Origin: Blastocatellia bacterium
GTDB lineage: Bacteria; Acidobacteriota; Blastocatellia; HR10
Assembly: GCA_035573895.1 (NCBI GenBank)
Contig: DATLZR010000173.1
Span: forward strand, 1-51,285
DNA length: 51,285 nt
Direction: 5' to 3'
Positions 4,456 to 9,889 of this stretch are shown here, in pieces. A program made the translations under genes and the position numbers. The notes beneath the pieces were generated by a model. It saw only the letters and a program-made list of their open reading frames with translations, was not told the origin of the DNA and ran no database searches. Every line of letters starts with the position of its first letter. Position 1 is the stretch's first letter.

Positions 4456-5232
4456 ATGTGGCAGCGATTGAAGCGGCTCCTTCGCTCCATCTTCGGTGGG
4501 ATCATCGAGCGGGCCGAAGACCCGGAGTTGATCCTTCAGCAAGTCATCCGTGACATGCGCGACAAGGTGCCGCAGATGAACGAAAATGTCGCCCAGGTCA
4601 TGGCGACGCAAAAATTGCTGGAAAAAGAGGTCGCCACGCTCGAACGGGAAATCACTGAATTTGATGCCAAGATTCGAGCATCCATCAAGCAGGGCCGTGA
4701 TGATCTGGCAACGGCATTCATCAGTGCCATGCAGGAGAAGCAGACGGCTCTGGAGCGGTCGCGTCAGCAACTGGAGGCCGCTCGCCGGGCGTCCGAACAG
4801 GCCATTCGCTTCCGCGACAATTACATTCTCCAGCTCAAGAAGCGCCAGCAAGAAGCGATGCAGCTCATCTCCGAGCATCGGCGGGCTCGCATTCAGGAAC
4901 AGTTGGCGCAAACGATGGCCAGTTTCCAGGTGGGAGATGAAGCTGGAACCTTCGAGGAGATGAGAGAGAAGGTCGCGCGTCGGGTCGCATCGGCCGAAGC
5001 GAAGATGGAGCTGGCGGCCACCGGCGTCGAGACTCAGATCGCGGAGATCGAAAAGGAGGCCCTCTCGATGCAAGTTCAGGACACGTTGCTGGCCTACAAA
5101 CGGCAGATGGGATTGCTGCCGGAGGCACCGGCAGCCACGCCAGCGGGGGTCTCCCTGCCGCCGGAGAAGACACTCGGTCCTGCGGAGGAAGAACTCGCCT
5201 CCCGGTCTGAACCGACGAAAGTCGCCGAGTAG
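4456..5232 (+). CDS. pspA: PspA/IM30 (Vipp1) family membrane-binding protein
   Basis: The 258-residue, highly charged, almost wholly helical protein opens with the amphipathic helix typical of the family (LKRLLRSIFGGIIERAEDPE). Conserved early features follow (LILQQVIRDMRDKVPQMNE), then long coiled coils to about residue 220 and a Pro-rich C-terminal tail. PspA/Vipp1 proteins bind stressed inner membranes and polymerise; they are structurally members of the ESCRT-III superfamily. The gene heads a same-strand cluster with a two-TM coiled-coil protein (77 bases downstream) and a Vps4-like AAA+ ATPase, suggesting that the polymer is remodelled by that ATPase. No pspB, pspC or pspF is seen. Confidence in the family is high. 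Confidence 0.92.
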   Translation: MWQRLKRLLRSIFGGIIERAEDPELILQQVIRDMRDKVPQMNENVAQVMATQKLLEKEVATLEREITEFDAKIRASIKQGRDDLATAFISAMQEKQTALERSRQQLEAARRASEQAIRFRDNYILQLKKRQQEAMQLISEHRRARIQEQLAQTMASFQVGDEAGTFEEMREKVARRVASAEAKMELAATGVETQIAEIEKEALSMQVQDTLLAYKRQMGLLPEAPAATPAGVSLPPEKTLGPAEEELASRSEPTKVAE

Positions 5233-5309
5233 TTCATGGCACTGTGGTGAGCCCCTCATCGGGTCCTGTGCCGGAGATTGTGTGAAGGCGTCGCCGGGAA
5301 AGTACGACA

Positions 5310-6143
5310 ATGGACGAAAAACCAAATTACTTTGTCGAAGCTCTCAAAGAGCCACTCAATCTGTGGAGTCTGGTCGCTGTTCTGGGGATCGCCGTTTACA
5401 TGGGTGAGCCGATGAGTCTTTTCATCGCGCTTGGCGGGCTCGTCGCGGAGGGGATCTATCTGCTCACGGTCCCGTTTCTGCCGGCCTACAAACGCATTGT
5501 CGAGCGTCGTCAGATGAAACGCGCGGCCGCCGAGCGACGAAAAGCCCGCGAGGAGATGATCAAAACCTTCGATCCCCGGGAGCGCGAAGCCGTCGAGTAC
5601 CTGCGCTGGCTGAAGAAACAGATCTATTCCAACTACATGCGCTTCACGCGCTCGCGGACGATCCCGCCGGAGATCCGCTCCCTCGATGCGATGTGGGACC
5701 GATTCGTTGACTTCCTGGACATCTATCGTCGGTGTAAGCACCATCTGCGTTCCTTCAACCGGCAGGCGATTCAGAACCAGATCGCCCTGGCCGAACGCCA
5801 GCTTCAGACCGCCGATGACAAAACCCGCCGGATTATTGAGGGAAATCTGCAAATTCTCCGCGAGCGACTGACCGAGTACGAGAGCGTCGAACGAGCCGTC
5901 AAGCTGCTCGAAGTTCAGCTTCAGTCCATCGAGAACTTCTTTGGACTCGTGAACGACAAGGTGATGACGATGTCCTCGGTTGACAGCATCAGCTCGCTCG
6001 ATTTTGATTCGATCCTCTCCTCGATTGAGGTCACGCGCTCGGTCCTGGAAGAAACCGCACCAATCATGAGTGCGCTCGAAGCTCTGTCCAGCGCCGAGGA
6101 GGAACCGGTGCGACCTCGCAGCATGACGTCGGAACGCTCGTGA
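5310..6143 (+). CDS. Two-TM coiled-coil protein of the PspA-AAA cluster, unknown function
   Basis: This is a 277-residue protein that I do not recognise as a named family. Two hydrophobic segments (about 17-31 and 36-57) lie at the N-terminus. A strongly basic, helical cytoplasm-type region follows (about 60-240) with heptad-like coiled coil, then a short acidic/Ser tail. It ends 4 bases before the ATPase gene and lies 77 bases after pspA, so co-transcription is likely. By position it could be the membrane anchor or adaptor joining PspA polymers to the AAA+ ring, a role played by unrelated PspB/PspC in other bacteria. That role is inference; only topology and linkage are visible. Confidence 0.8.
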   Translation: MDEKPNYFVEALKEPLNLWSLVAVLGIAVYMGEPMSLFIALGGLVAEGIYLLTVPFLPAYKRIVERRQMKRAAAERRKAREEMIKTFDPREREAVEYLRWLKKQIYSNYMRFTRSRTIPPEIRSLDAMWDRFVDFLDIYRRCKHHLRSFNRQAIQNQIALAERQLQTADDKTRRIIEGNLQILRERLTEYESVERAVKLLEVQLQSIENFFGLVNDKVMTMSSVDSISSLDFDSILSSIEVTRSVLEETAPIMSALEALSSAEEEPVRPRSMTSERS

Positions 6144-6147
6144 TGCC

Positions 6148-7860
6148 ATGACGCGCCCGAAACCCTTTCTCTCGCTCGAGGAGATCGGCCGGCTCCCGTC
6201 CTGGGCCGCCGAACTGGTGAGGAAGTACTACGCCGGAGAAGCCAGTCACTTTCTGTTGCACAACAACATTCATGATCTCGTCCCCTCCAACGGTCAGTTC
6301 ACCGGATTGCTCACGTTTTTGCAACGGAAATTGCTGGGGAACAAAAACGTCGTCTTCTACAATCGGAGTGAGGGCATCACCTTCAGCTCGCCGGAGGTGG
6401 AACGACAGTTTCTCGCTCAGCTTCGCGTGGCCGATCCGCTCGTGACGCGGGAATCGCTGAGGAGCCTGCCGCGAGAGCCGGGCCGCGCACTGCCGCTCAT
6501 CGAACGGTATCTGTTTTACGGTGATCAGGTCGCCGTCATTATCAATTTCCTGGAGACGATCGTCCCCTCGGGCGAGATCAGTTACATGAGTGGGGAGGAT
6601 CGCAATAACCTGGTGACCCTGCAACGGTGGATCACCAGCTCGCGCCTGCTCAGTTCCGACAACATCGTCATCCTCATCACCGAGAACCTCGCCGATGTGA
6701 ACACCCGGATTCGGGAGAACTCGCGGCTGGCGACGATTGCCATTCCCTATCCCGATGAGGCGGAACGGCTCGCCTTCATCCGCTACGTGCGGGCCGCCAA
6801 TCCCGGATTGAAGATGGAGATGACCGATGAGCAACTGGCTCAGCTCACCTCGGGTCTCAATCGCGTTCATCTGAATGCCCTGCTGCGCAGCGCCCTGCTC
6901 GATCCTCAAGGGCTGACACTGGAGGCCGTCCGCCGGAAGAAGAAAGAATTGATCGAGAGCGAATGCTTCGGGCTCATCGAGTTCGTCACGCCCAAGCACG
7001 GGCTGGAGAGCGTGGGCGGATTGGCCAGCGCCAAGGAATTTCTCCGCACCATCGCCGAGACGATCCGTCAGGGTCGCACGGAAGAAGCGCCCATGGGCAT
7101 TCTCATCGCCGGTCCGGTGGGCACCGGCAAGACGTTTCTGGCCGAGTGCTTCGCCAAAGATTGCGGATTGAATGTCGTCGAGTTCAAAAACTTCCGCGAT
7201 AAGTGGGTGGGCTCGACCGAGGCCAATCTCGAGAAAATTCTCAACATGCTGCGAACGCTGGCTCCGATTGTCGTGCTCATTGATGAGGCTGATGCCGCTC
7301 TGGGCACGCGCCGAAGCGAGGGAGATAGCGGGGTGAATGCGCGGGTGTTCTCTCGCATCGCTTCGGCAATGGGGGACACCAGCAATCGCGGGCGCATCCT
7401 GTGGATTCTCATGACCTGCCGCCCGGACCTGCTGCCAATTGATCTCAAGCGTCAGGGCCGGTGCGAGGAACACATTGCGCTCTTTTATCCTCAGACGGAA
7501 GAGGAACGGCGGGAAATCGCCGAAGCCATGATCCGCAAGAATAAAATCGCTCATACGATCACCGATTGGTCGCCGCTCACCCGTCATCCGATGGAATTAT
7601 CGGGAGCGGACATCGAATCCATGCTGATTCGAGCGCGCCGTCTGGCCCGACAAGCGGGCCGCTCTGTAGTGACCCAGGAGGACCTCGAGCGCGTCGCTCA
7701 GGAATTCATCCCGGCCCGCGATGAGCTGGAACTGGAATATCAAACGCTCGTCGCCATCCTCGAAGCCACCTCCCGCGAGATGATTCCCCCGAAGTATCGG
7801 CATCTCACACCGGCGGAGATCAGCCGTCGGGTCGAAGAGCTGAAGGTCCTCGTTGACTAG
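6148..7860 (+). CDS. AAA+ ATPase, Vps4/Ycf46-like, of the PspA cluster
   Basis: In the 570-residue product, residues 1-270 look like a degenerate AAA+-type domain with no Walker A (note VAVIINFLETIVP and NIVILITENLADVN). Residues about 285-520 form an intact AAA+ module: Walker A GPVGTGKT (322-329), pore loop KWVGSTEANLEK (352-363), Walker B VVLIDEAD (375-382) and an arginine-finger region DLKRQGR (432-438), followed by a helical lid. The pore loop resembles that of Vps4/katanin-type remodelling ATPases. Ycf46-like proteins share the degenerate-plus-active layout. The start ATG lies 4 bases after the preceding gene. An ATPase that pulls on PspA filaments is the simplest reading. A terminator follows directly. 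Confidence 0.88.
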   Translation: MTRPKPFLSLEEIGRLPSWAAELVRKYYAGEASHFLLHNNIHDLVPSNGQFTGLLTFLQRKLLGNKNVVFYNRSEGITFSSPEVERQFLAQLRVADPLVTRESLRSLPREPGRALPLIERYLFYGDQVAVIINFLETIVPSGEISYMSGEDRNNLVTLQRWITSSRLLSSDNIVILITENLADVNTRIRENSRLATIAIPYPDEAERLAFIRYVRAANPGLKMEMTDEQLAQLTSGLNRVHLNALLRSALLDPQGLTLEAVRRKKKELIESECFGLIEFVTPKHGLESVGGLASAKEFLRTIAETIRQGRTEEAPMGILIAGPVGTGKTFLAECFAKDCGLNVVEFKNFRDKWVGSTEANLEKILNMLRTLAPIVVLIDEADAALGTRRSEGDSGVNARVFSRIASAMGDTSNRGRILWILMTCRPDLLPIDLKRQGRCEEHIALFYPQTEEERREIAEAMIRKNKIAHTITDWSPLTRHPMELSGADIESMLIRARRLARQAGRSVVTQEDLERVAQEFIPARDELELEYQTLVAILEATSREMIPPKYRHLTPAEISRRVEELKVLVD

Positions 7861-7906
7861 CGTCCCGGCGGGCTGTGCACCCGTTCCCGGGACGTCGTGG
7901 GTTTTT
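7861..7906 (+). terminator. Rho-independent terminator of the pspA-AAA cluster
   Basis: Immediately after the ATPase stop, CGTCCCGG (7861-7868) pairs with CCGGGACG (7887-7894), extended inside by CGGG/CCCG with a small bulge. A run of five T (7902-7906) follows. Confidence 0.7.
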
Positions 7907-8096: not shown

Positions 8097-8193
8097 GGTG
8101 AGGTGCGTGAGCCTGGCTGAAACGGACGGTTTGCTAAACCGTTGTAGGGCATTAAAAGCTCTACCGTGGGTTCGAATCCCACCCTCACCGCCA
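8097..8193 (+). tRNA. tRNA-Ser(GCT)
   Basis: Acceptor GGTGAGG (8097-8103) pairs with CCTCACC (8183-8189), then discriminator G and encoded CCA (8191-8193). The anticodon arm is ACGGT-TTGCTAA-ACCGT with anticodon GCT. A long variable arm (about 8143-8165), typical of tRNA-Ser, precedes the T arm GTGGG-TTCGAAT-CCCAC. It reads AGC/AGT serine codons. Confidence 0.95.
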
Positions 8194-8443
8194 CCTTTTC
8201 TCCTCTCGGCGTACCGTGAGTGCCGTCTGCAACGGATGCCGGGGCGTGGCGTGAAGTAAACAAGCCTTTTTCCTGCTCCTGGCGAGGGCAGGTGGAAGGC
8301 GGCGCCCATCGCCGAAAAAGTTTCTCGCCGATGGGAAGAAAAGCAGCGTCGCGGGAGTAGGAGCGGGTCTAAAAATGAGACCACGACTTGACAGGGACCA
8401 CCGCGCTTCTCCTCAAACCCTCCGATCTTGATGCCGAAAGACT

Positions 8444-9889
8444 ATGACGCAAATCCGTGTTCGATTCGCCCCTTCTCCGACAGGGTATCTCCATGTCGGA
8501 GGAGCCCGGACAGCCTTATTTAACTGGCTCTTCGCCCGCAAGCACGGGGGGACATTTATTCTGCGCATTGAAGACACCGATGTGCAACGCTCCTCGGCTG
8601 AAATGGTCGAGGGGATCATCGAGGGATTGCGGTGGCTGGGACTGGATTGGGATGAAGGACCCTATTTTCAGTCCGAGCGGATCGCTCTCTATCAGGAACG
8701 GGCCCGGGCGCTGGTGGCCTCCGGTCAGGCATATTACTGCTTTTGCTCCCCCGCTGAACTGGCGGCCAGGCGGGAGGAAGCCGCGCGTCAGAAACGAGCC
8801 TGGAAGTACGAGGGAACGTGTCGTCGGCTGATGCCGAAGCAGGTCGAAGAAAAACTGGCCCAGGGTCTCCCTCATGCGCTTCGCTTCAAGGTTCCGCCGG
8901 AAGGGGTCACCACCTTCACCGACGAGGTCTTCGGCGAAGTGACCGTCGAGAATGAGAGCCTCGAGGATTTCGTGTTATTGAAATCGGATGGATTCCCCAC
9001 CTATCACTTGAGCGTCGTCGTAGATGATGCCGACATGCGGATCAGCCACGTCATTCGCGGGGCCGATCATCTATCGAACACACCCAAGCAGGTGCTCCTC
9101 TATCGCGCCTTTGGGTGGGAACTGCCGATCTTCGCTCATGTTCCACTCATTCTGGGACCGGACCGCACGCGATTGTCCAAGCGGCATGGCGCGACGAGCA
9201 TCACGGCGTATCGAGACATGGGATTTGTTCCCGAAGCGATGCGTAATTTTCTCGCGCTACTGGGGTGGTCGCCGGGTCACCCGGATCGGGAAATCTTTCG
9301 CACCCCCGAACTGATCGAAGCCTTCTCGCTTGGTGGTATCAGTCGAACGAATGCCGTCTTTAATTTCGACAAGGCTCTGTGGATGAATGCCGAGTACATC
9401 CGCTCGATGAGCGCGGCGGAACTCTATCCCCTCGTGCGACCCGAATTGGAGAAAGCCGGGCTCTGGCGTGAGACGCTTGCCCGGGAGGAACACGAATGGT
9501 TTCTCGGTCTGATTGATTTGCTGAAAGTGCGTGCTCGCACGCTCAAAGACTTCGTCGCGGCGGGACGCCCCTATCTCGCCGAGGAATTCGAGTTCGATCC
9601 TCAGGCGGTGGATAAGAATCTCAGGAAGGAGCCGGGACTCAAGGGACTTCTCCTGGAGCTGGCCGACCGATTAGCCGAGGTGGATCCCTTCACCTTGCAG
9701 ACAACGGAAAGGGCACTGCGCGAGCTGGCCGCAAACAGGGGGATCAAAGCCGGAGTGCTGATCAACGCAGCGCGGACGGCATTGACGGGCAGTGCGGTGA
9801 CGCCGGGAATTTTCGATGTGATTGTCACGCTCGGCAAGGACCGCACCGTTGGTCGCTTGCGCCAGGCGGCGCTCAGATTCTGCGCTTGA
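8444..9889 (+). CDS. gltX: Glutamyl-tRNA synthetase
   Basis: This 481-residue class I synthetase charges tRNA-Glu. The Rossmann catalytic domain shows the HIGH-type motif (PSPTGYLHVGGARTALFNW, residues 11-29) and a KMSKS-type loop reading RLSKRHG. The family block VVVDDADMRISHVIRGADH lies between them. The C-terminal half (from about residue 330) is the helical anticodon-binding region. Length is normal for bacterial GluRS. There is no strong Shine-Dalgarno; the ATG at 8444 is chosen because it lies just before the conserved IRVRFAPSPTG start. The gene follows tRNA-Ser and stands alone. Whether it is discriminating or also charges tRNA-Gln cannot be told here. Confidence 0.95.
   Translation: MTQIRVRFAPSPTGYLHVGGARTALFNWLFARKHGGTFILRIEDTDVQRSSAEMVEGIIEGLRWLGLDWDEGPYFQSERIALYQERARALVASGQAYYCFCSPAELAARREEAARQKRAWKYEGTCRRLMPKQVEEKLAQGLPHALRFKVPPEGVTTFTDEVFGEVTVENESLEDFVLLKSDGFPTYHLSVVVDDADMRISHVIRGADHLSNTPKQVLLYRAFGWELPIFAHVPLILGPDRTRLSKRHGATSITAYRDMGFVPEAMRNFLALLGWSPGHPDREIFRTPELIEAFSLGGISRTNAVFNFDKALWMNAEYIRSMSAAELYPLVRPELEKAGLWRETLAREEHEWFLGLIDLLKVRARTLKDFVAAGRPYLAEEFEFDPQAVDKNLRKEPGLKGLLLELADRLAEVDPFTLQTTERALRELAANRGIKAGVLINAARTALTGSAVTPGIFDVIVTLGKDRTVGRLRQAALRFCA

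Follow-up and report, generated by a model that had tools for sequence, protein, structure and literature searches.

Might a bacterial PspA, a member of the ESCRT-III superfamily, be served by an ATPase of its own, as ESCRT-III is by Vps4? This question is raised by a locus of Blastocatellia bacterium (assembly GCA_035573895.1, contig DATLZR010000173.1), from which we analysed a stretch of 51,285 nt, here called the window. The locus encodes PspA, a protein with two transmembrane (TM) segments and an ATPase with two AAA halves, and an earlier note, made from the DNA sequence alone, had taken it for a self-contained membrane-remodelling machine with a Vps4/katanin-like ATPase. By computation we established the order of the genes, the anatomy of the ATPase, the conservation of the TM partner and a match between the ATPase and a short motif in the C-terminal tail of PspA. 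The pairing of this tail tag with the ATPase suggests that the ATPase may pull PspA polymers apart as Vps4 does those of ESCRT-III.

The three genes lie on one strand, with 77 nt separating pspA from the TM gene and 4 nt separating the TM gene from the ATPase gene, exactly as the earlier note had described them. They are placed as follows, with the tail features of PspA:

4456..5232 (+), pspA, 258 aa: PspA/IM30 coiled-coil protein of the ESCRT-III superfamily (PF04012)
5164..5181 (+), PspA residues 237-242: tail motif EKTLGP, proposed as the ATPase recognition motif on the basis that it tracks the ATPase across genomes
PspA tail peptide: EKTLGPAEEELASRSEPTKVAE
5310..6143 (+), gene for the two-TM protein, 277 aa
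6148..7860 (+), gene for the double-AAA ATPase, 570 aa: inactive N-half, active C-half and a conserved C-terminal helical extension

A PspA tail motif that tracks the ATPase

The PspA of this locus matched PF04012 with E=8.9e-28 and 97.8 bits, against a gathering score of 33.9, and was the single PspA match in the whole genome. Alignment of orthologues revealed that residues 217-258 form a variable, disordered tail. The earlier note had proposed looking for a C-terminal signal there, and one was found. Where Blastocatellia carry the ATPase, the end of PspA consists of a variable linker and then EK[TS]LGP or near variants, often with a KALE or KLTE end; because the linker varies and the motif is kept, the element resembles a short linear motif. 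The tails of Pyrinomonadaceae PspAs differ from these, and the motif is absent. A first scan of the last 45 residues picked up a helix, KREMG, in Pyrinomonadaceae (7/22), and the scan was then restricted to residues past the conserved YK..MG helix.

Within Blastocatellia, the pattern [KR][TSED][LIM](G|AP|end) was present in 23/26 ATPase-bearing PspAs and in 0/22 ATPase-less ones (Fisher 8e-11; this value and the next ignore relatedness). It was found in all six PspAs of family f6, whose three genes are dispersed. Outside the class, K[TSED][LIM]GP or a KT[ML] end occurred in 28/32 ATPase-linked PspAs against 0/32 unlinked ones (Fisher 6e-14), the unlinked set comprising the PspAs of ATPase-less genomes and the second PspAs of ATPase-bearing genomes; the latter alone gave 0/6. 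Shuffled tails led us to expect under 1 motif per group. Two linked PspAs that were fetched afterwards and so held out (L301 and L303) both fit the motif. Among six Pyrinomonadaceae with only a paralogous ATPase, the motif was found in the main PspA of one (L152, which ends GRTM). Of the operon products, the ATPase gives the best match to the motif by its presence, since the TM protein is retained in Pyrinomonadaceae, where the motif is missing, and the motif is retained in Blastocatellia, whose operon has none of the transporter genes that some related operons carry.

Anatomy of the ATPase and the two-TM protein

The degenerate AAA half that had been read ahead of an active one is indeed there. 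PF00004 matched the ATPase only at residues 318-444, and the N-half had neither a Pfam match nor a P-loop; an AlphaFold2 model (pLDDT 86.3, 17 sequences) gave this half an AAA-like fold. Residues 8-556 of the model aligned to p97 D1+D2, Rix7, NVL and Pex1/6 chains. In a 22-member ATPase alignment (A6), Walker A, Walker B, the pore loop and the R435/R438 region were invariant or nearly so. The features of the ATPase, and others of the locus, are these:

6148..6972 (+), degenerate N-terminal AAA half without a P-loop: candidate docking platform
7111..7134 (+), residues 322-329: Walker A, GPVGTGKT, with G/GK positions invariant in A6
7201..7236 (+), residues 352-363: pore loop 1, KWVGSTEANLEK, with G355 and N360 invariant in A6
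7270..7293 (+), residues 375-382: Walker B, VVLIDEAD, with D379, E380 and D382 invariant
5352..5477 (+), residues 15-56 of the 277-aa protein: two-TM hairpin, from hydropathy and model helices
PspA N-terminal amphipathic helix: MWQRLKRLLRSIFGG
7860..7906 (+), end of the operon, likely intrinsic terminator: hairpin and T-rich tail, GGGTTTTTCC

Kinship with Vps4 or katanin by descent was not supported. The ATPase has two AAA cassettes, gave neither an MIT match (Pfam, E<=1) nor a Vps4_C match, and scored higher against the NCBIfam model for CDC48 (99.7 bits) than against that for archaeal CdvC/Vps4 (49.8 bits), with PAN at 91.2 and FtsH at 75.7 bits; on these grounds we rejected descent from Vps4. 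In structure comparison, Vps4 was tied with p97 D2, spastin and FtsH. Profile-profile comparison matched the ATPase with 100% probability, over residues 173-551, to AAA proteins of about 500 aa from the same phylum, which we take to be Ycf46-like (COG0464).

The 277-aa protein has hydrophobic segments at residues 15-31 and 35-56 by hydropathy and in its AlphaFold2 model (pLDDT 87.8, pTM 0.73), which runs from a short helix through a membrane hairpin of two helices to an all-helical domain. Because residues 57-90 hold 12 K/R against 5 D/E, the C-terminal domain is probably cytosolic. No Pfam or NCBIfam family matched the protein above cut-off, and a relative was found in 96/98 related genomes. 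A search for PspC (PF04024) in 30 genomes, the source genome and 29 relatives, returned none, which makes it plausible that the TM protein is the membrane partner of PspA. TM proteins of ATPase-bearing Blastocatellia have RPPxxQRQ-like C-termini, whereas those of ATPase-less Blastocatellia end GNYELLP- or LDLLLS-like, and this difference may mark a possible second contact.

Gene order, the longer operon and its precedent

Gene order proved to be conserved beyond this genome, across Blastocatellia families. Of 80 named Blastocatellia loci, 77 have pspA and the TM gene side by side, and 19 have the ATPase gene next; the full order is kept in families f1-f4, f7 and f9, and also in f8. In one f8 locus (L079), a TonB_C gene (8379-9470, 363-aa protein) stands between the TM and ATPase genes. 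When 50 of the named-locus genomes were searched whole, the orthologous ATPase was found in 22; within these 50, none was found in Pyrinomonadaceae, which keep the pspA-TM pair and six of which hold only a diverged paralogue. In the Pyrinomonadaceae locus L077, a PemK/MazF-like toxin gene (8640-9083) comes directly after the pair. In f6 genomes all three genes are present and dispersed. PspA and the TM protein thus make up the invariant pair, to which the ATPase is a separable addition. The picture of a self-contained machine stands in so far as PspA, TM protein and AAA ATPase form a conserved unit; it was too strong given the ATPase-less Pyrinomonadaceae, the dispersed f6 genes and the extra ABC and OmpA genes of related operons.

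Co-occurrence, another check that had been proposed, also bore out the association. Outside the class, across the phylum, PspA was found in 28/34 genomes with the ATPase and in about 28/231 without it, the denominator of 231 being inferred from the draw. With the order kept across the class and this co-occurrence outside it, the gene linkage is far beyond chance, and it is old. A more distant double-AAA branch (L283-L288, L304-L306 and L313) was recovered with HMM E values of about 1e-72 to 1e-92, and full-length ATPase homologues with 30-32% identity were found on Paenibacillaceae megaplasmids (Bacillota; L290-L293). A DUF262 protein is encoded in the stretch of 3/4 of these megaplasmid loci.

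Elsewhere in Acidobacteriota, a longer operon encodes PspA, an SBP-OmpA protein, an ABC permease, an ABC ATPase, the TM protein and the AAA ATPase (L061, L062, L080, L082, L085 and L094, which include second loci inside Blastocatellia). The SBP-OmpA protein joins an OmpA domain to a solute-binding region, which is NMT1-like in L080; it had no full-length match in the source genome. The trio appears to be a transporter-free form of this longer operon. Diverged second TM-protein loci also lie beside ABC transporter genes within Blastocatellia (L061, L062 and L064-L070), and in L061 and L062 the TM and ATPase genes are separated by that of an additional unannotated protein of 253-257 aa. Ravi et al. 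2024 (PMC11237479) described PspA beside a double-AAA protein with an inactive N-terminal copy (AEY64321.1 and OGG56892.1), together with longer operons that carry an ABC ATPase, a permease and a PBPB/OmpA protein, and had already proposed a role in ATP-dependent membrane remodelling; the association of PspA with a double-AAA protein is therefore not new here. Their main text does not describe the 277-aa partner or the PspA tail motif, and neither the motif nor the constancy of the TM partner was found in the main texts that were searched. What appears to be new is a PspA tail motif that tracks the ATPase, and a TM partner that is constant.

The surroundings of the operon are as follows. The likely terminator that the earlier note had placed at its end was recovered as a hairpin (7860-7895; dG -25.4 kcal/mol, z -2.13) with a T-rich tail, which a simple terminator scan had missed. 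An amidohydrolase gene (PF07969; 2557-4104 (-)) lies upstream of pspA and divergent from it, and a tRNA-Ser(gct) gene (8097-8193) lies between the operon and a glutamyl-tRNA synthetase-like gene (8444-9889). A sigma-54 site upstream of pspA was rejected, as such sites in the window were at chance level and none was located there. A defence-system reading was also set aside; it drew only weak AAA matches, to IetA models.

Proposed mechanism, rival explanations and known systems

We lean, with modest confidence, towards an ATPase that is dedicated to PspA, gripping its tails and remodelling its polymers by a logic like that of Vps4 but not by descent from it. The locus would then be a PspA membrane-maintenance module with its own AAA ATPase. 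PspA would polymerise on the inner membrane, as its family suggests, and the two-TM protein, as the constant membrane partner, would presumably recruit or position PspA where PspC was not found. The double-AAA protein would form a ring and recognise the flexible PspA tail through EK[TS]LGP or its equivalents, at the inactive N-half, the KWVG pore loop or both; ATP use by the C-half would lead to the extraction or exchange of PspA subunits. The analogy is with Vps4 acting on ESCRT-III tails that bear the MIT-interacting motif (MIM), the ATPase here coming from another AAA lineage. More tentatively, at slightly under an even chance, bacteria may have a dedicated non-Vps4 AAA machine for PspA disassembly that evolved independently of Vps4, with its own C-terminal motif (K-[TSED]-[LIM]-G-P or -KTM) as the counterpart of the MIM and a dedicated TM adaptor.

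Several points weigh against a PspA-dedicated ATPase. PspA is not known to require one (PMC11746142), and Pyrinomonadaceae manage without the orthologue. The motif pattern was drafted after the tails had been seen and was revised once to exclude the helix. Three f9 tails are exceptions that keep APPxRAK[AM]LE, and L081 and L083 are exceptions as well. The evolutionary events behind the motif contrasts are few, because most ATPase-less Blastocatellia form a single clade, and outside the class the unlinked PspAs come from another PspA subfamily. The distant double-AAA branch gave no PspA or TM match in the fetched stretches, and no PspA gene is annotated near the megaplasmid homologues.

Of the other explanations, we think it unlikely, though less so than the two that follow, that the ATPase is an assembly or quality-control unfoldase for the TM protein or for an ancestral ABC transporter/OmpA complex, with PspA acting only as a membrane stabiliser and the motif inherited with a PspA subfamily. 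The longer operon does have the SBP-OmpA, permease and ABC ATPase genes after PspA and ahead of the TM/AAA pair; TM and AAA genes often stand side by side; and the TM-protein tails, too, differ between ATPase-bearing and ATPase-less Blastocatellia. Yet the ATPase and the motif persist in Blastocatellia operons that have no transporter genes, f6 genomes keep the motif although their genes are unlinked, and Pyrinomonadaceae retain the TM protein without the motif. It is also conceivable, but quite improbable, that the PspA tail controls the ATPase and is not its substrate, so that PspA would hold or inhibit the ATPase until the membrane is stressed. In Escherichia coli, PspA inhibits the AAA+ protein PspF. 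This precedent would fit, and such control would produce the linkage and the motif pattern just as well; however, the ATPase has no DNA-binding domain, and its unfoldase-type double cassette and aromatic pore loop are unlike the NtrC-type PspF.

We give similarly little credence to the idea that the TM protein is a divergent, TM-anchored, Snf7-like ESCRT-III subunit that co-polymerises with PspA. In similar operons, Ravi et al. (PMC11237479) mention TM-bearing Snf7 homologues, and the helical domain of the 277-aa protein reached Z values of 8.0 to CdvB2 and 7.9 to CHMP3. These values were equal to or below those for designed bundles and BAR domains, which together with other bundles headed the comparison, and so do not discriminate; Foldseek with the model gave no match with E below 1e-3, hhalign against PspA profiles gave a probability under 1%, and no Pfam Snf7 match was found. 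We set aside a PspA/Snf7 paralogue for want of profile support. Returning to the PspA-dedicated ATPase, a motif that tracks one ATPase offers a concrete handle on whether a dedicated ATPase recycles bacterial PspA polymers, and nature supplies the controls: Pyrinomonadaceae, with PspA and the TM protein but neither the orthologous ATPase nor the motif, and f6, where the three genes are dispersed and the motif is kept.

Compared with known systems, the locus shares a PspA of PF04012 with the classical PspABC-F system but differs from it in having no PspC in the 30 genomes and no PspF-type regulator in the operon. Like the proteins of Ravi et al. 2024, the ATPase joins an inactive N-terminal AAA domain to a second AAA domain and is encoded with PspA; Acidobacteriota are absent from the main text of that study, and the trio here is without transporter genes. 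Cdc48/p97, Rix7/NVL and Pex1/6 have the double AAA fold in common with the ATPase (Z about 21-23 over both halves), whereas identity over both halves is at most 22%, the Cdc48 N-domain is missing and the N-half has no P-loop. The Ycf46-like proteins are homologous over residues 173-551 and carry an identical linker signature ahead of the active AAA domain, but are about 500 aa long and leave the first 170 residues of the ATPase unaligned. From Vps4 and archaeal CdvC the ATPase differs in its two cassettes, its lack of MIT and Vps4_C and a profile score lower than that for CDC48; like them, it is encoded beside an ESCRT-III superfamily protein (pspA, in the same, conserved operon), has an aromatic pore loop (KW.G) and, as we propose here, may recognise a C-terminal tail motif. 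The label 'Vps4-like' is not fair for its identity but may be fair for its possible function.

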